From contig NC_014151.1 of assembly GCF_000092865.1 (NCBI RefSeq), positions 558,001-622,000 of the forward strand: 64,000 nucleotides of DNA. Direction: 5' to 3'. Origin of the DNA: Cellulomonas flavigena DSM 20109 (GTDB taxonomy: Bacteria; Actinomycetota; Actinomycetes; Actinomycetales; Cellulomonadaceae). Below, piece after piece: positions 5,265 to 12,871 of this stretch. Position numbers and translations under genes: made by a program. Each line of letters opens with the position of its first letter. Within the stretch, counting starts at the first letter, position 1. A model generated the notes under the pieces. The model saw nothing but the letters and a program-made list of their open reading frames with translations, was not told the DNA's origin and did no database searches.

Positions 5265-5323
5265 CACCGACCCCGACCGGGCGCAGACTGTGGCCGTCGC
5301 GATCGCCGAGCACGGAGGTCCGT

Positions 5324-6485
5324 GTGGCACCTGACGCAGCAGCCCGCCCCGCCCTCGTCACCGTCGACGACGACCCCGCCGTGTCGCGTGCCGTCGCGCG
5401 TGACCTGCGCCGCCGCTACGGCGACGCCTACCGCGTGGTGCGGGCCGAGTCCGGGCCCGACGCGCTCGACGCGTGCCGCGAGCTCAAGCTGCGGGGCGAG
5501 CAGGTGGCGCTCCTGCTCGCCGACCACCGCGGCCAACCGCGCGACCGCCGCGCTCCGCGAGCGCGTCGCCGGCATGCGGCACAAGCTCGCGATGATCGCG
5601 AGCGGCCCGTACGACGCGACGACGCTCGGCACCCTCGTCGACCTGCAGGAGCAGGCCGTCGAGGCGCTGGCCAAGTCCCGCGCGCCCGGCGCGCCGCCGC
5701 CGCCGACCGCGCTGGGGCGCGCCGACGCGGAGGACGCGGTGACCGACTGGCTCGACGCGCACGGCATCGCCGGCGGCTGGGACCTCGCACCGACCTTCGT
5801 CACGGCACGTCTGGACCCCGAGTGGCTCGACCGCGTCGCCGACGCCGTCGCGCCCGGGATCCTCGAGGACGCCGTGCGCTGGCTCGGGTACGCGCTGGAG
5901 ACCGAGCAGCTGATGAACGACGTCGAGGACGCGACGTCACGCATCTCGTCGCTCGTCGGCGCCGCCAAGCAGTACTCGCAGATCGGCCGCGCACCGGACC
6001 AGACCCTCGACGTGCACGACCTCCTCGACTCGACACTGACGATGCTCGACCGGCGCCTCGACGGCATCGACGTCGTCACGCACTACGACCGCACGCTGCC
6101 TCCCGTGCACGTCTACGGTGCCGAGCTCAACCAGGTGTGGACCAACCTGGTCGACAACGCCGCGCAGGCCATGGACGGCCACGGCACGCTGACGCTCACC
6201 ACGCGCCGCGTCGACGACCGCCTCGAGGTCGAGATCGCCGACACGGGCCCGGGCATCCCACCCGAGATCGTCGACCGGGTGTTCGAGCCGTTCTTCACCA
6301 CCAAGCCCGTGGGCTCCGGCACCGGCCTGGGCCTGGACATCGCGTGGCGCATCGTCGTCACCAAGCACCACGGCGACCTGTCCGTGCGCTCGGTGCCGGG
6401 GGACACGCGGTTCCTCGTCCGGCTGCCGCTGGCCGGTGACGTCTCCGCCACCCCACCCGCGCCCGACCCGGAGGTGCCCGCATGA
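5324..6485 (+). pseudogene. Response-regulator start joined out of frame to histidine-kinase C-terminus
   Basis: GTG 5324 (GGAGG, 5-nt spacing) opens a receiver domain (ALVTVDDDPAVSRAVARDLR, then VALLLADHR) that stops at about 5520, just past the phospho-Asp. From about 5525 another frame encodes the end of a sensor kinase: RATAALRERVAGMRHKL, then N-box ELNQVWTNLVDNAAQAM, G1 ADTGPGIP, F-box EPFFTTK and G2 GTGLGLDIA. The phospho-accepting His box is absent. I recall the receiver as the N-terminus of actinobacterial response-regulator/thioredoxin-reductase fusions and the kinase as their usual neighbour, so the pair looks like the scar of a deletion. The stop overlaps the next ATG (ATGA). Confidence 0.7.
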
Positions 6486-6830
6486 CCACGCCCGCGATCG
6501 ACCCGACCGTCCCGCCCAGCGGCCCCGGCTGCCTCGACTGCGAGGCCGCCGGCGGCTGGTGGGTGCACCTGCGTCGCTGCGCCGCGGGCGGGCACGTCGG
6601 CTGCTGCGACTCCTCGCCCTCGCAGCACGCGACGGCCCACTGGCGCGCGACGGGCCACCCGCTGGTCCGCTCCTACGAGCCCGGCGAGGACTGGTGGTGG
6701 GACTACGCCGCGGGGGGCGTACGGGGAGGGCCCGGAGCTCGCCCCACCCGTCGCGCACCCCGCCGACCAGCCGGCGCCCGGTCCCGCGGGGCGGGTCCCG
6801 GCGGACTGGTGGGACCGCATCCACCGCTGA
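6482..6830 (+). pseudogene. UBP-type zinc-finger protein, frameshifted in a G6 tract
   Basis: ATG 6482 overlaps the kinase stop. The first 75 residues are a ZnF-UBP domain (CLDCEAAGGWWVHLRRCAAG, HVGCCDSSPSQHATAHW, HPLVRSYEPGEDWWWDYA). The typical end (GEGPELAPPVAHPAD to ADWWDRIHR) is present but in the next frame, ending at TGA 6828-6830. Removing one G from the run at 6712-6717 joins them perfectly. Without the repair, the frame runs on in low-complexity sequence to 6997. In actinobacteria such small UBP proteins sit beside redox/two-component genes. The role is unknown. Confidence 0.75.
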
Positions 6831-6849
6831 CCACCGCCGAGGTGGTGCT

Positions 6850-6885
6850 CCCGGCCGGCCCCGCCCCTCCTCGGGGCCGGCCGGG
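6850..6885 (+). terminator. Terminator of the 4.8-6.8 kb operon
   Basis: A 14-bp perfect stem (6850-6863 with 6872-6885) and an 8-nt loop. Its position just after the repaired zinc-finger stop at 6830 supports that stop as the true gene end. Confidence 0.75.
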
Positions 6886-7097
6886 GCGTCGTCACCTCAC
6901 GACCCACGCGGCGCAGACGTTCGGCGCGCTCGCGCCGAGCGGTGCCGGCAGCGGGACGAAGGCGCTACCGGGGCGTGCACCGATGTCGTCCTCATGACCA
7001 CCTCACGGCCGGGACCTGCCGACGACCCTCGTCCGCCCACGCCTCCATGAGGGCGACCCGCGCCCCCGTGATACGGCGGGAGCGGGTGGCTCGTGGG

Positions 7098-7598
7098 TCA
7101 GGGCACGACGGTCGTCCCCGTGCGGAGGTCGACCGTGAGCCCGGACGCGTCCGGGGCGTCGTCGGGCAGCTCGACGACGCTGGTGGTGGGGACGAGGTCC
7201 ATCGTGCAGGGGCGGGTGTACTCGTCGGTGCCGCTCAGGGTGATGCGCAGGACGTCCGCACCTGCGTCCCACGTGACGTCGGTCGGGACGACGGGGCACG
7301 TGCTGCTGCCGAACGTGACGACCTGCAGCTCCCGCGGGTCGTCGCCCGCGACGGCTGCGACGTCCTCGCCCGTGACGCCGTCCGGTGCGCCGGGCCGGAC
7401 GGTCGCGACGGCCGGGGCCGGGGTCGGTGCGCTGTCGGGCTCGGCGTCGGGCTGGTCCTCGGGCGCCGTGCTCGTGGACGGGCCGGTGGCGGGTGGGGTG
7501 GGCGTGTCCTGCGCGCCGGGGTCGGCGCTGCCCGCGCACCCCGCGACGGCCAGGGCGAGGGCCGCGGCCGTGAGGATCGTGCCGCGTCGCGTCGTCAT
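7098..7598 (-). CDS. Lipoprotein of unknown function
   Basis: 166 residues. A basic N-terminus, a hydrophobic segment and lipobox LAVAGC (Cys21) mark a lipoprotein anchored to the outer face of the membrane. A Pro/Thr/Asp-rich linker follows to about residue 65, then a small globular domain with two cysteines (STCPVVP, YTRPCTM) that could form a disulfide. ATG 7598 lies three bases after the stop of the acyltransferase gene, behind a GAGGGGG ribosome-binding site, so it is probably the last gene of that operon. No family was recognised. Confidence 0.8.
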   Translation of the reverse strand: MTTRRGTILTAAALALAVAGCAGSADPGAQDTPTPPATGPSTSTAPEDQPDAEPDSAPTPAPAVATVRPGAPDGVTGEDVAAVAGDDPRELQVVTFGSSTCPVVPTDVTWDAGADVLRITLSGTDEYTRPCTMDLVPTTSVVELPDDAPDASGLTVDLRTGTTVVP

Positions 7599-7601
7599 GA
7601 C

Positions 7602-8705
7602 CTACCCCCTCGCTGCAGGCGCCCCCTGACGCCCTGCACCCAGCATGACGCGGCGGGGTCGGTGTGACGAGCCTCCGCGTCGTCTCTGCAGCGGCCGCTC
7701 CACCAGCCACCAGCTCGCGGTCGCCGCGAGCACGGTCGCGGGCAGCGCCACCAGGCCCGTCGCGTCACCGAGAGACGGCCGCAGCCACAGCGTCAGCGGG
7801 TAGTTCCACAGGTAGGCGGCGTAGGAGACGACACCGAGCGCGACGAGCGGGCGCCACCCGGCCCGCACGGTGACGTGCCGCCGCCCGGCCAGCACGAGCG
7901 CGCACGTCGCGACGGCGACGGCCGGGGCTGCGAGCAGGTACGTCGCGGCGTGCCCGCGCAGGCCGGTGACCACGAGCGCGGCGAGCAGGGTGACGGCGGC
8001 GACCACCGCGTGCCGCCCGGCGACGGCGGCGGGCAGCCGGTCCTGCGCGACGCGGCACGCCGCGCCGACGACGAAGCACAGCAGCCACGACGTCGCGAGC
8101 GGGTACGCCGCGTCGGGGTCGGCGCGGAACCACCAGGCCGTCGCCACGCACAGCCCCGCCGTGACGACCGCCGCCAGCACGAGCCCGGCGCGCAGGCGTC
8201 GCGCCCGCACGGCCAGCAGCACCACCAGGGGCCACACGACGTAGAACTGCTCCTCGGTGGCCAGCGTCCACAGGTGGTAGACCGCCGGGCTCACGCCGAC
8301 GAGCCCGACGTGCGGCACGTTCGCGGTGTACGTGAGCGACACCGCGACCGTCCGACCGAGCGTCGCGGCGTCGTCGAGCGGGTCGAGCGTCAGCGTGACG
8401 ACGACGAACCCCGCCACGAGCACCACCAGCGCCGGCACGAGCCGCCGCGCGCGGCGCCACCAGAACCGGCGCAGGTCGACGCGGCCCGTCGCCGACGCCT
8501 CGTCGACGAGCAGGCCCGTGATGAGGTGCCCGGACAGCGCGAAGAACATGACCACGCCCACGACGCCCGCGCCGGGGAAGACGTCGGGCCACGCGTGGCG
8601 CAGCATGACGAGGCCCACGGCGACCCCGCGTAACGCGTCCCACGCCGCCACGCGGGTCCGGGCCGTGGTCGGCGCCCGCGTCGCCCGGACGCCCGGCGCC
8701 GTCAC
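7602..8705 (-). CDS. Acyltransferase-3 family membrane protein
   Basis: 367 residues, about ten transmembrane helices. Features of the OafA/OatA-type acyltransferase-3 family: RGVAVGLVMLRHAWPD with the conserved His near residue 36, FFALSGHLITGLL, FWWRRARRLVPAL and HLWTLATEEQFYVVWP. The family moves acyl groups onto envelope polymers. The membrane half of the VanT serine racemase is an acyltransferase-3 relative too. GTG 8705 overlaps the ligase stop by four bases, so it is translationally coupled to the D-Ala-D-X ligase. Either an O-acetyltransferase of wall polymers or a VanTm-like partner is possible. Confidence 0.85.
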   Translation of the reverse strand: MTAPGVRATRAPTTARTRVAAWDALRGVAVGLVMLRHAWPDVFPGAGVVGVVMFFALSGHLITGLLVDEASATGRVDLRRFWWRRARRLVPALVVLVAGFVVVTLTLDPLDDAATLGRTVAVSLTYTANVPHVGLVGVSPAVYHLWTLATEEQFYVVWPLVVLLAVRARRLRAGLVLAAVVTAGLCVATAWWFRADPDAAYPLATSWLLCFVVGAACRVAQDRLPAAVAGRHAVVAAVTLLAALVVTGLRGHAATYLLAAPAVAVATCALVLAGRRHVTVRAGWRPLVALGVVSYAAYLWNYPLTLWLRPSLGDATGLVALPATVLAATASWWLVERPLQRRRGGSSHRPRRVMLGAGRQGAPAARG

Positions 8706-9703
8706 GACGCGCGGGCCGCGTGCCGCGCGCGCGCCTGTGCGACCAGTTCCGCGACCAGCTCGGCGTACGTCAGCCCGGCCGCGGCGAGCATCACCGGGAC
8801 CTGCGAGTGCGCGGTCATGCCCGGCATCGTGTTGACCTCGTTGAGGACCGGGCCGCGCGCGGTGAGGAAGAAGTCGGCACGTGCGACGCCGTCGCAGCCC
8901 AGGGCGTCGACCACGGACAGCGCGGCGGCGGCCAGGGCCTCGGCGTCCGCGGGCTCCAGCGGTGCGGGGACGACGAACCGTGCGCTGCCGTCGTACTTGG
9001 TCGCGGTGTCGAAGACGGCCCCCGCGTGCCCGATCTCGAGCGCCGGGGACACCAGGGTGGTGCCGTCCGCGCGGCGCAGCACGGCGACGTCGATCTCGCG
9101 TCCGGTGACGACCTCCTCCACGAGCACGCGGTCGTCGAGCTCGAGGGCCGCCGCGACCGCGTCGGCGAGGTCCTCGACGGTGTCCACGCGGCGCACCCCG
9201 TGGCTCGAGCCGCTGGACACGGGCTTGACCACCGCCGGCAGCCGCGGGTCGGCGCACGCCTCGGCGACGCCGCGCACGAGCCGCCCGTCGGCGACGGCGA
9301 CCCCCACCGCGGCCGCGACCAGCTTGGTCACCCACTTGTCCATGCCGACCGCGCCCGCCCGCACCCCCGACCCGACGCACGCGACGCCGGCGAGGTCGGC
9401 CAGCGCCGCGAGCGTCCCGTCCTCGCCGCGCGGGCCGTGCACGGCGGGCAGCAGCACGTCGCACGCCGCGACGAGGCCCACCGCCTGGGCGAACGTCAGC
9501 GCGTCGCCCCCGCTCCACCAGGACCCGTCGCGCGCGACGGTCAGCTCGACGACGTCGTGCGACGGTGTCAGCGCGGCGCGGACGGCCGCGGCGGACGCGA
9601 GCGACACGTCGTGCTCGGCGTTCGCGCCGCCGCCGACGACCGCGACCCGGCACACGGGCACGGTCGGGGAGGTGCGGGGGTCGTGCAGCAGGTCGGTGGT
9701 CAC
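8702..9703 (-). CDS. ddl: D-alanine-D-X ligase (Ddl/VanC/VanG-like ATP-grasp ligase)
   Basis: 333 residues. Ddl signatures: N-terminal VAVVGGGANAEHDVSLAS, central PAVVKPVSSGSSHGV (ATP-binding Lys), EEVVTGREIDVAVL, ALEIGHAG, and C-terminal ARADFFLT, VLNEVNTMPGMTAHS with the Mg ligands. The omega-loop reads FDTATKYDG; the Lys-Tyr pair fits D-Ala-D-Ala or D-Ala-D-Ser ligases rather than D-lactate ligases. It overlaps the racemase stop (GTGA) and sits with a D,D-peptidase. That context suggests a specialised second ligase rather than the housekeeping one, but specificity cannot be read reliably from sequence. Confidence 0.88.
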   Translation of the reverse strand: MTTDLLHDPRTSPTVPVCRVAVVGGGANAEHDVSLASAAAVRAALTPSHDVVELTVARDGSWWSGGDALTFAQAVGLVAACDVLLPAVHGPRGEDGTLAALADLAGVACVGSGVRAGAVGMDKWVTKLVAAAVGVAVADGRLVRGVAEACADPRLPAVVKPVSSGSSHGVRRVDTVEDLADAVAAALELDDRVLVEEVVTGREIDVAVLRRADGTTLVSPALEIGHAGAVFDTATKYDGSARFVVPAPLEPADAEALAAAALSVVDALGCDGVARADFFLTARGPVLNEVNTMPGMTAHSQVPVMLAAAGLTYAELVAELVAQARARHAARAS

Positions 9704-10884
9704 GCGGGCTCCTCGCAGGGGGTGGACGGGGGTGCGGGCACGACGTGCCGCACGAGACGGCGGCCCAGCCCGGTGAGCAGCTCGTGCGGGAGGGTGCCCG
9801 CCCAGCCGGCCCACTCGGTGAGGGTGGGTGCGAGATCCTCGCCCGTGCCGATGACCGTGACGACGTCGCCGGTGCGCACGGCAAGGTCACCCACGTCGAC
9901 CACGACCTGGTCCATCGACACGCGCCCCGCGAGCGGCCGTCGCCGGCCGTGGACGAGCACCTCGGCGCGCCCCGACGCGGTCACGGGCAGGCCGTCGGCG
10001 TAGCCGAGCGGCAGCAGGGCCAGCCGCGTCGGGGCGGACGTGCGGTACGTGTGGTCGTACCCGACGCCCACGTCCGCGCCCACGTCGCGGACCTGCACGA
10101 CCGGGGCCGTGACCTGTGCGGCGGCGCGCAGCACGGGGTACCGGCCGGTCGGGTCGATGCCCACCAGTCCCGCACCGACGCGGCTCAGGTCGAACCGGGT
10201 CGTCGGGAGACCGAGCACCGCGGCCGTCGCGCCCAGGTGCCGGACCCGCGGGCGCAGACCGGCGGCGCGCGCCCGCGCGACACCGTGCGCGAAGCGTGCC
10301 GTGGCGTCCGTGTTGGCCTCCGGGTCGAGGCTCGCGGCGCACGCCAGGTGACCCATGACGCCGACGACGCGTACCGCCCCGGCGAGCTCGGCGCGCCACG
10401 CCGCGGCGCACAGCGCCGGCCACGTCTCGGGTGGGCAGCCGTCGCGCGCCGTCCCGCAGTCGAGGTACAGGTGGACGTCGACGCCGCGGCCCGTGCGCCG
10501 CCCGGCGGACACCGCGGCCTCGAGGTGCGCGAGGCTCGGCACCGCGACGTCGATGCCGTGCAGCACGGCGTCGGACAGGTCGGCTCCGGGGGCGTCGAGC
10601 CAGCTCAGCAGGGGTGCGCCGATCCGGGCGGTGCGCAGCTCGACGGCCTCGGCGAGCGTCGCCACGCCCAGCGCGTCGGCACCGTGCGCGAGCGCCGTGC
10701 GCGCGACGTCGGCGGCCCCCAGCCCGAACCCGTCGGCCTTGACGACGGCCATGAGCCGCCGCGCCGAGGCCGCAAGGACGCGCGCGTTGTGCGCGACCGC
10801 GTCGAGCCGCACGGTCAGGACCGGCCGCGTCGCCGCGAGCATCGCGACGGGCCCGGTCCGCGGCTCGCAGAGCGTCGCGCTCAT
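9700..10884 (-). CDS. Alanine racemase-type PLP enzyme (alanine or serine racemase)
   Basis: 394 residues. N-terminal PLP barrel with the Schiff-base Lys in LMAVVKADGFGLG (near residue 42). Also GVMGHLACA, RFDLSRVGAGLVGIDP, the second-half catalytic Tyr in VGYDHTY, and the C-terminal beta domain (PLGYADGLP, GRVSMDQVVVDVGD). It makes D-Ala or, by context, possibly D-Ser for the adjacent ligase. ATG 10884 overlaps the peptidase stop (ATGA). A VanT racemase would carry a fused membrane domain; here that function would have to come from the separate acyltransferase-3 gene downstream. Confidence 0.9.
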   Translation of the reverse strand: MSATLCEPRTGPVAMLAATRPVLTVRLDAVAHNARVLAASARRLMAVVKADGFGLGAADVARTALAHGADALGVATLAEAVELRTARIGAPLLSWLDAPGADLSDAVLHGIDVAVPSLAHLEAAVSAGRRTGRGVDVHLYLDCGTARDGCPPETWPALCAAAWRAELAGAVRVVGVMGHLACAASLDPEANTDATARFAHGVARARAAGLRPRVRHLGATAAVLGLPTTRFDLSRVGAGLVGIDPTGRYPVLRAAAQVTAPVVQVRDVGADVGVGYDHTYRTSAPTRLALLPLGYADGLPVTASGRAEVLVHGRRRPLAGRVSMDQVVVDVGDLAVRTGDVVTVIGTGEDLAPTLTEWAGWAGTLPHELLTGLGRRLVRHVVPAPPSTPCEEPA

Positions 10885-11519
10885 GCCGCCACCGGCCCGT
10901 ACACCGCCGCGCGCTGCGAGGTGGTCAGCGCCCAGTAGCGGTCGCCGTGGCTCCAGTGCCACCACTCGGTGGGGTAGTTGACGAATCCTGCGCCCGCCAT
11001 CGCCTCGGCCAGCGCGGTCCGCAGCACGCGTGCGGTCGGCGGCACGGGAGCGTCGGTGAAGCAGCGCCCTTCGCTCTCCTCGGGCGTCGCGTCGAGCGGG
11101 CACCCGAGGTCGAGCTCGCGGCCCGCGTCGTCGACGAGGGTGACGTCGACCGCCGCACCTGCGACGTGCGGCGCGACGGCAACGGGGGACACGTACCGGC
11201 TCGTGAGGCGCTCGACCTCGTGGTCGTCGGCGTCCGCGTGGCCCGCGCGCACGGTCGCCCGGTAGCGCGTGACGATCTCCGCCTGCGCGGCCGGGCTGCG
11301 CCAGCCCTCCGCGAGCACGAGGTGGACGCCGGGTGGCAGGGCGGCCGCCGCGCCCGCGAGGCGCCGCGCGACACCGGCCCGCACCAGCGCACCGGGGGTG
11401 TGCGTCGGGCGCAGCAACGGCACGGGGGCGACGACGAGCGGTTCGCCGCAGTCGGCGACGGGCACGGCCGTCACGCGCGGGTCGCTCAGGAGGACGGCGT
11501 CGATGCAGGTCAGGGGCAC
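10881..11519 (-). CDS. D,D-peptidase of the VanX/VanY (M15) type
   Basis: 212 residues from GTG 11519. Zinc-peptidase features: GWRSPAAQAEI (substrate Arg), the HxxGxAxD motif in PHVAGAAVDVTL, and EWWHWSHGD with the catalytic Glu and zinc His. No signal peptide or transmembrane helix is visible, as expected for a cytoplasmic VanX or VanXY that hydrolyses D-Ala-D-Ala so a modified dipeptide can be used. First gene of the operon. TAGCGT seven bases before the GTG, with no ribosome-binding site, suggests a leaderless transcript. It could also be a general M15 carboxypeptidase. Confidence 0.82.
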   Translation of the reverse strand: MPLTCIDAVLLSDPRVTAVPVADCGEPLVVAPVPLLRPTHTPGALVRAGVARRLAGAAAALPPGVHLVLAEGWRSPAAQAEIVTRYRATVRAGHADADDHEVERLTSRYVSPVAVAPHVAGAAVDVTLVDDAGRELDLGCPLDATPEESEGRCFTDAPVPPTARVLRTALAEAMAGAGFVNYPTEWWHWSHGDRYWALTTSQRAAVYGPVAA

Positions 11520-11734: not shown

Positions 11735-12871
11735 GTGGGGAGTGGACGGACGGGGAGCGAGTTCGTCACCGCCGGGCGGGTCGTGCTGGGGGCCGGGACC
11801 GCGGCGGACGTGCCCGGGCTGGTCGCGGGCCTCGGGGAGCGGGTGCTCGTGGTCGCCGGACGGTCCGCGGACGTGTCCGCACTGACCGGGGCGACGGTCC
11901 ACCGGCACCGCGGGGAGCCCGACGTCGAGTCGGTGCGCGCGGCCGTCGCCGTCGCGCGCGACGTGCGGCCCGACGTCGTCGTCGGGTGGGGCGGCGGGTC
12001 GGTGCTCGACCTCGCCAAGTGCGTGGCCGTGCTCGCGCCGGGGACGTCCGACGTGCTCGACCACCTCGAGGTCGTCGGCCGCGGACTCCCGCTGCCGGAC
12101 GCGGCGCTGCCGGTGGTCGCCGTCCCGACCACCGCCGGCACGGGCGCCGAGGTCACCGCGAACGCTCCCGTCCGGGTGCCGCAGCGCGGCGTCAAGGCCA
12201 GTCTGCGGGGCCGCGGGATGCTGCCGGCCGTGGCCGTGGTGGACCCGCTGCTCACGCTCGCGTGCCCGCCGGCGCTGACCGCGGCGTCGGGCGTCGACGC
12301 GCTCACGCAGTGCCTCGAGGCGTTCACCACGCCGTTCGCGACGCCGCTGACGGACCCGCTCGCGCGCGACGGTCTCGTGCGGGCGGGGCGCAGCCTGCGG
12401 CGCGTCGTCGAGCACGGGGACGACGTCGACGCGCGGACGGACCTGAGCGTCGCGGCGCTGCTGTCGGGCATGGCGTTGGCGAACGCGAAGCTGGGCGCCG
12501 TGCACGGCCTCGCCGCCGCGCTCGGCGGGCGGCTCGGGGCGCCGCACGGGCAGGTGTGCGCGGCGGTCCTGGCCCCGACCACGGCCGCCAACGTCGCCGC
12601 CCTGCGCCGCACGGGCGCCCCCGGCCTGGGCCGGTACGACGCCGCGGCCGTCGCGCTGACGGGCCGGACGGGAGCGCGGGCCGACGACGCCGTCGCGTGG
12701 CTCGAGGACCTCGTCACGGCGCTCGGGGTGCCGGGGCTGGGGGACCTGGGCCTCGCGCGGGCCGACGTGCCGGACGTCGTCGCCGACGCGCTGGCGGCGT
12801 CGAGCACGCGCGGCAACCCCGTCGCGCTCACGGCCGAGGAGCTCACCGAGGTCGTCGCCGCGTCGTGGTGA
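11735..12871 (+). CDS. Iron-containing alcohol dehydrogenase family protein
   Basis: 378 residues. Fe-ADH/DhaT fold: nucleotide site VVGWGGGSVLDLAK (near 86-99), AVPTTAGTGAEVTANA, ASGVDALTQCLEAF, and KLGAVHGLAAALGG followed by GAPHGQVCA, which give two metal His. In FucO-type enzymes the third His sits in DALTH; here it is Gln (DALTQ), as in some subfamilies, so metal use is uncertain. TAGCCT (11723-11728) six bases before the GTG suggests leaderless transcription. Substrate unknown; divergent from the van-like operon. Confidence 0.85.
   Translation: MGSGRTGSEFVTAGRVVLGAGTAADVPGLVAGLGERVLVVAGRSADVSALTGATVHRHRGEPDVESVRAAVAVARDVRPDVVVGWGGGSVLDLAKCVAVLAPGTSDVLDHLEVVGRGLPLPDAALPVVAVPTTAGTGAEVTANAPVRVPQRGVKASLRGRGMLPAVAVVDPLLTLACPPALTAASGVDALTQCLEAFTTPFATPLTDPLARDGLVRAGRSLRRVVEHGDDVDARTDLSVAALLSGMALANAKLGAVHGLAAALGGRLGAPHGQVCAAVLAPTTAANVAALRRTGAPGLGRYDAAAVALTGRTGARADDAVAWLEDLVTALGVPGLGDLGLARADVPDVVADALAASSTRGNPVALTAEELTEVVAASW

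Follow-up and report, generated by a model that had tools for sequence, protein, structure and literature searches.

A racemase-ligase-peptidase operon in Cellulomonas flavigena suggests an accessory switch of the wall precursor targeted by vancomycin

Introduction

Why should one operon combine relatives of the enzymes that make D-alanyl-D-alanine (D-Ala-D-Ala) with a relative of the enzymes that destroy it? The question is raised by a locus of Cellulomonas flavigena DSM 20109 that lies in a window of 64,000 nucleotides, positions 558001-622000 of the single 4.12 Mb contig. Four minus-strand genes of this window (11519-7602) encode an M15 peptidase, an Alr-fold racemase, a Ddl-fold ligase, and an acyltransferase-3 protein. 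Our analysis suggests that this operon may let the cell alter the wall precursor to which vancomycin binds. We think it probable that it is an accessory wall-precursor switch, working like the D-Ala-D-serine (D-Ala-D-Ser) sets of the VanC, VanE, VanG, VanL, and VanN types and not a member of them.

Results

The operon consists of the following genes.

10881..11519, minus strand: putative VanX-like M15 D,D-dipeptidase, 212 amino acids (aa), GTG start; PF01427 at 62 bits (cut-off, 27)
9700..10884, minus strand: Alr-fold racemase, 394 aa, ATG start; PF01168 and PF00842 over their cut-offs
8702..9703, minus strand: putative Ddl-fold D-Ala-D-X ligase, 333 aa, GTG start; PF01820 and PF07478 over their cut-offs
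7602..8705, minus strand: acyltransferase-3 membrane protein, 367 aa, GTG start; PF01757 at 106 bits (cut-off, 31)

A sequence-only reading of this DNA had described four genes in one direction with exact 4-base overlaps and had named the four protein families. The coordinates agree, with overlaps at 10881-10884, 9700-9703, and 8702-8705, and all four identities hold at the Pfam cut-offs.

The C. flavigena genome encodes a second full Ddl elsewhere, which scored 218 bits in the PF07478 search (operon ligase, 169 bits); the five further matches were all at or below 30.5 bits. There is also a second full Alr, at 223 bits (operon racemase, 185 bits), and the two further PF01168 matches reached 66 and 46 bits. 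The peptidase is the sole PF01427 protein of the genome, and six PF02557 (VanY-family) matches over cut-off lie elsewhere. Therefore, the operon doubles both D-Ala-D-Ala-making enzymes and adds a relative of the enzymes that destroy their product. For a ligase placed next to a D-Ala-D-Ala-destroying enzyme, D-Ala-D-Ala would make little sense as the product.

We then compared the operon enzymes with relatives. A one-genome-per-species scan with two peptide patterns found 367 ligase relatives, and the best 80 loci were used, which are not an even sample. Racemase rows came from 77 of these 80 loci (L042 and L064 gave none, and L022 only a cut one), and the row of L091 is gapped at the key column. 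The housekeeping sets comprised 28 ligase loci (L095-L122) and 29 racemase loci (30 minus L154, which yielded no row), each with the C. flavigena copy added. The branch leading to the operon clade had an SH-like approximate likelihood ratio (SH-aLRT) support of 100 in the racemase tree and 99 in the ligase tree, and the housekeeping groups had supports of 99 and 94, respectively. We therefore rejected a housekeeping identity for the operon ligase and racemase, since another full Ddl and Alr are present and the trees separate the clades. On copy number and grouping, the sequence-only proposal of a set beyond the housekeeping pair survived. The operon ligase clade is not sister to VanA/VanG. VanA and VanG fell together on the housekeeping side, as did a Streptomyces racemase-ligase fusion. 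The trees were built quickly and rooted at the midpoint, and VanA, VanG, and the fusion sit on long branches, so the exact places of these three are unsure.

Both enzymes differ from the housekeeping forms at positions that probably bear on specificity. Alr enzymes strictly conserve Tyr354 (BsAlr numbering), VanT has Asn in its place, and specificity probably depends critically on this residue (PMC3485190). The operon racemase has His at this position (residue 367). His occupies the site in 91 of 92 operon-clade rows, the remaining one being a gap, and Tyr occupies it in 29 of 30 housekeeping rows. In the ligase, Gln301 sits where VanA and VanG have Arg (both read S-R-Y-P), and VanC presumably has Arg there as well. 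We take this position to contact the second substrate, from work on Ddl and VanC. The site reads S-Q in all 95 operon-clade rows; the 29 housekeeping rows read S-M (17 rows), S-V (9 rows), or S-A (3 rows). The omega-loop KY that the sequence-only reading had pointed out is present in the operon ligase, as it is in housekeeping ligases. However, VanG (4fu0), a D-Ala-D-Ser ligase, reads EKY. Therefore, the motif does not discriminate between substrates, and we discarded it as an argument for D-Ala.

Natural racemase-ligase fusions, one of them on the Streptomyces plasmid NZ_CP045548 (L138:4612-6813), allowed the two positions to be read in a single protein. Among the 120 proteins listed of 2546 hits, 57 (within P0246-P0309) had both parts, and their residues were read from an alignment. 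The racemase/ligase pairs were His/Gln in 26, Leu/Leu in 11, His/Leu in 8, Asn/Leu in 3, Gln/Ala in 2, and His/Ile in 2, with Pro/Gln, Gln/Leu, His/gap, Gln/Ser, and His/Pro seen once each. Fused Gln ligases were paired with a His racemase in 26 of 27 cases (Fisher p = 2.6e-6 for 56 of the 57 rows, the gap row being dropped and kinship not corrected for). Residues at both positions vary among the fusions, as if their substrates had diversified.

The peptidase aligns with the VanX of a vanA cluster at the active-site motifs. PHVAGAAVD and EWWHW, the two motifs on which the sequence-only reading had relied, match SHSRGSAID and EWWHY, and the Arg of the upstream EGWRS matches that of DGYRP. An AlphaFold model of moderate quality (mean predicted local distance difference test score, 72) had VanX (1r44) as its best PDB match, with an E value of 3.7e-6 and a template modeling score of 0.46. 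No signal peptide was apparent by reading. Against the NCBIfam models, the protein scored 28.7 of the 320 bits set for dipept_VanX and 60 of the 176 bits set for the DdpX-like PRK10178.

The acyltransferase is a separate PF01757 gene after the ligase. Its motif His and Glu, which we take to be catalytic in relatives, are kept in all 28 rows (its own copy plus 27 loci). SucT was its only NCBIfam match, at 57 of 1275 bits, and no VanT model matched. The sequence-only reading had seen in the separate racemase and acyltransferase genes a split VanT. A precedent is VanL, in which the racemase and the membrane part are two genes (PMC9404765), and a fusion of the two parts exists in the Micromonospora protein described below. 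On the other side, the match is to SucT and not to VanT, the gene occurs at 27 of the 80 loci, and BLASTP gave no match between the acyltransferase and the Micromonospora protein at 1e-8. We regard a role as the membrane half of VanT as plausible by analogy.

In a 748-residue protein of Micromonospora sp. URMC 103 (P0353), an acyltransferase-3 domain is fused to a related Alr-fold racemase whose Tyr354 site holds Asn; an actinobacterium thus has a protein of VanT-like plan.

At the 80 loci, neighboring genes were scored from tblastn tables with thresholds that we set. The racemase was present at 78 loci. The upstream peptidase was VanX-like at 47 loci and VanYn-like at 22, and no locus had both; one of the two was found in 68 of the 76 loci with a complete upstream side. 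Of the 27 acyltransferase-bearing loci, 25 had the VanX-like peptidase and none the VanYn-like one. Two-component genes lay beside 48 of the 80 loci. An OmpR-type regulator or kinase was found at 14 loci, all of the VanYn type (14/22). A NarL-type kinase or regulator was found at 34 loci, among them 27 of the 47 VanX-type loci and no VanYn-type locus. At one VanYn-type locus of Actinomadura (L041), the regulator scored 447 bits to VanR-O (cut-off, 505) and the kinase 417 bits to VanS-O (cut-off, 720). Judged by these scores, the pair at this locus, the one example examined, resembles VanR-O/VanS-O. The peptidase of another Actinomadura locus (L049) scored 246.5 bits to VanY-N, just under the cut-off of 250.

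Within the genus, the genes are inherited together. The ligase clade (E <= 1e-95) was found in 15 of 81 genomes, and exactly these genomes had the racemase as well. The peptidase was present in 14 of these carriers and in none of the other 66 genomes (Fisher p = 8e-15 over the 81 genomes, kinship not corrected for). The nearest named relatives of the operon ligase are from Cellulomonas, and the ligase of C. gelida is 90% identical to it. Among 396 sampled genomes of the phylum, two matches exceeded 450 bits, and the next listed had 298.

The surroundings of the operon were compared in 12 of the 14 other carriers (all except G420 and G439). Five loci (L170, L171, L172, L179, and L180) have alcohol dehydrogenase and YqeY neighbors in common. 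At L173, L178, and L181, the operon genes are about 75 to 90% identical, and neither the alcohol dehydrogenase nor YqeY lies in the stretch. L174, L175, and L176 (G410, G423, and G427) carry a version about 55 to 63% identical, followed downstream by a NarL-type kinase and regulator, and L177 holds a more distant operon (46 to 52% identical). In the racemase tree, the enzymes of L174-L176 (rows L135, L124, and L123) fall among rows of other genera. This pattern leads us to suspect more than one acquisition.

We also scored the operon proteins against the curated NCBIfam Van models. The ligase was below every D-Ala-D-Ser cut-off: NF000207, 190.7 of 520 bits; VanG, 210.2 of 495; VanC, 158.9 of 650; VanN, 164.1 of 700; VanL, 149.2 of 750; and VanE, 138.2 of 700. 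It reached 177.7 bits to the D-Ala-D-Lac (D-lactate) model (cut-off, 550). The racemase was below the VanT cut-offs, with 184.9 of 460 bits for vanT-G-Cterm, 89.4 of 900 for vanT-CELN, and 65.5 of 750 for vanT-L-cat. Because these cut-offs were missed, we do not count the operon as a member of the VanC/G/L sets.

The operon is flanked by the following genes.

7098..7598, minus strand: lipoprotein-like gene, 166 aa, with a lipobox-like LAVAGCAG by reading; 3-base gap after the acyltransferase gene
6482-6997, convergent with the operon: zf-UBP gene, between the histidine-kinase-like and lipoprotein-like genes
5322-6485, convergent with the operon, beyond the zf-UBP gene: histidine-kinase-like gene, HATPase_c only
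11735-12871, upstream of the operon and divergent: iron-type alcohol dehydrogenase (Pfam)

The lipoprotein-like gene had no Pfam or NCBIfam family at an E value of 0.001. It does follow the acyltransferase gene closely, as the sequence-only reading had it in ending the unit there. However, it is not a conserved neighbor: the homologues in L171 and L180 are about 4 kb away. We rejected it as a conserved part on this ground, and it probably adjoins the unit without belonging to the conserved system. The upstream dehydrogenase was considered as a VanH and rejected, since Pfam assigns it to the iron-type alcohol dehydrogenases (Fe-ADH). The histidine-kinase-like gene had no NCBIfam model over cut-off among the best 25 of its 71 matches. 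Homologues of this gene and of the zf-UBP gene (window positions 5322-6997) lie near the operon in several relatives.

Discussion

We suggest the following mechanism. The racemase would produce a D-amino acid in place of D-Ala or in addition to it; the likeliest is D-Ser, from L-Ser. The ligase would join D-Ala to this product to give D-Ala-D-X, most likely D-Ala-D-Ser, and the VanX-like dipeptidase would destroy the D-Ala-D-Ala of the housekeeping ligase. With D-Ala-D-Ala removed, MurF would be fed the altered dipeptide. The wall stem would then end in a residue that is poorly bound by glycopeptides, and a resistance phenotype would be predicted. The acyltransferase-3 protein may be the membrane part of a VanT divided into two genes and serve the racemase in substrate entry, or it may modify or acylate the wall. 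Substrate entry is the task that the VanT membrane domain serves.

The Van-like set of the sequence-only reading thus emerges in modified form. VanX- or VanYn-like peptidases and two-component systems do stand beside the genes of relatives. However, the cut-offs for Van ligases, VanT, and VanX were missed, and the quick tree did not place the ligase as sister to VanA/VanG.

A number of observations weigh against the proposed switch. Some concern the enzymes themselves. The racemase His and the ligase Gln both differ from the residues of the known D-Ser enzymes (Asn and Arg). The general models were passed, with 215 bits to TIGR00492 alr (cut-off, 168) for the racemase and 259 bits to TIGR01205 Ddl (cut-off, 246) for the ligase. 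The housekeeping Ddl and Alr outscore the operon copies even to the VanG and VanT-G models (293.5 and 223.3 versus 210.2 and 184.9 bits). One housekeeping-type Alr among the 30 rows (L165; L169:5807-7507, genome G521) has His at the Tyr354 site. It is the sole PF00842 match of its genome, and its neighbors are nnrD- and tsaE/tsaB-like by reading; nnrD/tsaE-type genes are the usual surroundings of alr. Therefore, His alone does not exclude alanine as the substrate. Among the fusions, 11 of 37 scored His racemases are joined to Leu, Ile, or Pro ligases. The alignment rows are related and in part identical (117 different among 123 racemase rows), and some genomes of the genus set are also among the 80 loci (six identical pairs).

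Others concern the gene set. G474 (L170), a close relative, keeps the racemase, ligase, and acyltransferase, and its peptidase gene is missing. Where the upstream side was complete (76 loci), 8 loci had neither peptidase. Of the 22 VanYn-like matches, eight were below 80 bits, and the L052 peptidase reached only 67 of 250 bits to VanY-N. One MurF over cut-off was found in the genome. No VanRS-type pair adjoins the operon copy of the window, in line with the sequence-only reading, and the best vanR-O match anywhere in the genome had 147 bits (cut-off, 505).

The absence of an adjoining regulator pair in the window would also fit developmental or general wall remodeling, or control of the D-Ala-D-Ala pool, with no antibiotic link and with the acyltransferase decorating the wall. 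The conserved motif His and Glu of the acyltransferase and its match to SucT point the same way, and the authors of PMC8698665 raise remodeling for VanY-like and pdx genes. We nevertheless think this explanation unlikely. The operon occurs in only 15 of the 81 genus genomes, two versions of it have different neighbors within the genus, and a VanR-O/S-O-like pair adjoins one relative.

A second explanation keeps the switch and changes its product: the second residue would be not D-Ser but another D-amino acid (for example, D-Asn, D-Thr, or D-Lys), a terminus undescribed for Van systems. To our knowledge, no amino acid other than D-Ser is known to fill this role in glycopeptide-resistance sets, and this stands against it. 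The specificity positions are in its favor, as neither the VanT Asn nor the VanA/VanG Arg is present. Related accessory racemases vary at their site (His, Leu, Asn, Gln, Tyr, and others), and the fused ligases have Gln, Leu, Ala, Ile, or Ser at theirs. We rate this alternative, too, as unlikely.

It is quite improbable, in our judgment, that the operon provides D-cycloserine insensitivity through an additional Alr and Ddl whose product is still D-Ala-D-Ala and which escape a drug that hits both. Such an explanation accounts neither for the VanR-O/S-O-like pair nor for a VanX- or VanYn-like peptidase that would break down what the two enzymes are supposed to make. What speaks for it is partly the His at the Tyr354 site of a housekeeping-type Alr. 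Ddl variants on gene cassettes reportedly confer D-cycloserine resistance. In Mycobacterium tuberculosis, Alr substitution or overexpression does so (PMC6744398).

An ordinary second Alr and Ddl of unaltered specificity with a scavenging dipeptidase would agree with the alr and Ddl cut-offs passed and with the housekeeping-like KY, but VanG has KY too, the operon enzymes form separate clades, and the specificity sites carry clade-specific substitutions, so we hold this to be very improbable.

We return to the accessory wall-precursor switch. Sets of the operon type were found in Cellulomonas, Nocardioides, Lentzea, Kineosporia, Actinomadura, and others, with a patchy distribution in the one genus tested. 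A wider proposal is that a widespread actinobacterial switch reached a non-D-Ala terminus independently of VanC/G, with its own His/Gln signature and in VanX- and VanYn-type versions, and has so far been described only in part. We give this proposal an even chance of being right. If it is true, D-Ala-D-Ser-like (or other D-Ala-D-X) switching arose separately in actinobacteria, where glycopeptides are made, as an environmental counterpart of D-Ala-D-Ser glycopeptide resistance. Substrate-choice residues would be added to both enzyme families, racemase and ligase. There would also be a reservoir of van-like sets that screens based on vanHAX, vanRS, or vanY can pass over. The existence of such walls in soil actinobacteria would be directly testable by mass spectrometry.

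Comparison with known systems

In gene content, the operon, with its putative ligase and dipeptidase, resembles the VanC, VanG, and VanL operons of enterococci, which combine a racemase, a D-Ala-D-X ligase, a D,D-dipeptidase, and an acyltransferase-3 protein in one unit. However, the ligase, racemase, and peptidase of the C. flavigena operon are far under the NCBIfam cut-offs, and its ligase clade was not sister to VanA/VanG in the quick tree. The operon also has His in place of Asn, Gln in place of Arg, and a VanX-type peptidase instead of VanXY, and its copy in the window is without adjoining vanRS. It shares with vanHAX, the D-Ala-D-Lac system, a putative VanX-type dipeptidase next to a ligase, but it has no VanH, and its ligase is well under the D-Ala-D-Lac cut-off.

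Two further systems, both actinobacterial, are described in PMC8698665 (2021). The Micromonospora "pdx" operon has a Ddl-like ligase, a VanX-like dipeptidase, and a VanRS-like pair, and an altered precursor was suggested for it. It shares the ligase and dipeptidase with our operon, whereas a serine-threonine dehydratase-like gene replaces the racemase. The same paper describes loci with vanRSY, an alanine/aspartate racemase, and Ddl in Allonocardiopsis, Murinocardiopsis, and Geodermatophilales, called rare, for which D-Ala-D-Ser was suggested. Judged by their description, these are probably the VanYn-type branch that we found in Actinomadura and others. That screen began from vanSRHAX and vanSRY queries. 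The parts of the paper that we consulted give no account of the VanX-racemase-ligase(-acyltransferase) form, of a NarL-type pair, or of residue signatures, and Cellulomonas, Nocardioides, and vanT do not occur in its main text. A search of the open-access literature found no description of the VanX-racemase-ligase-acyltransferase set in the parts consulted. A VanY-type form was already noted in 2021 (PMC8698665).

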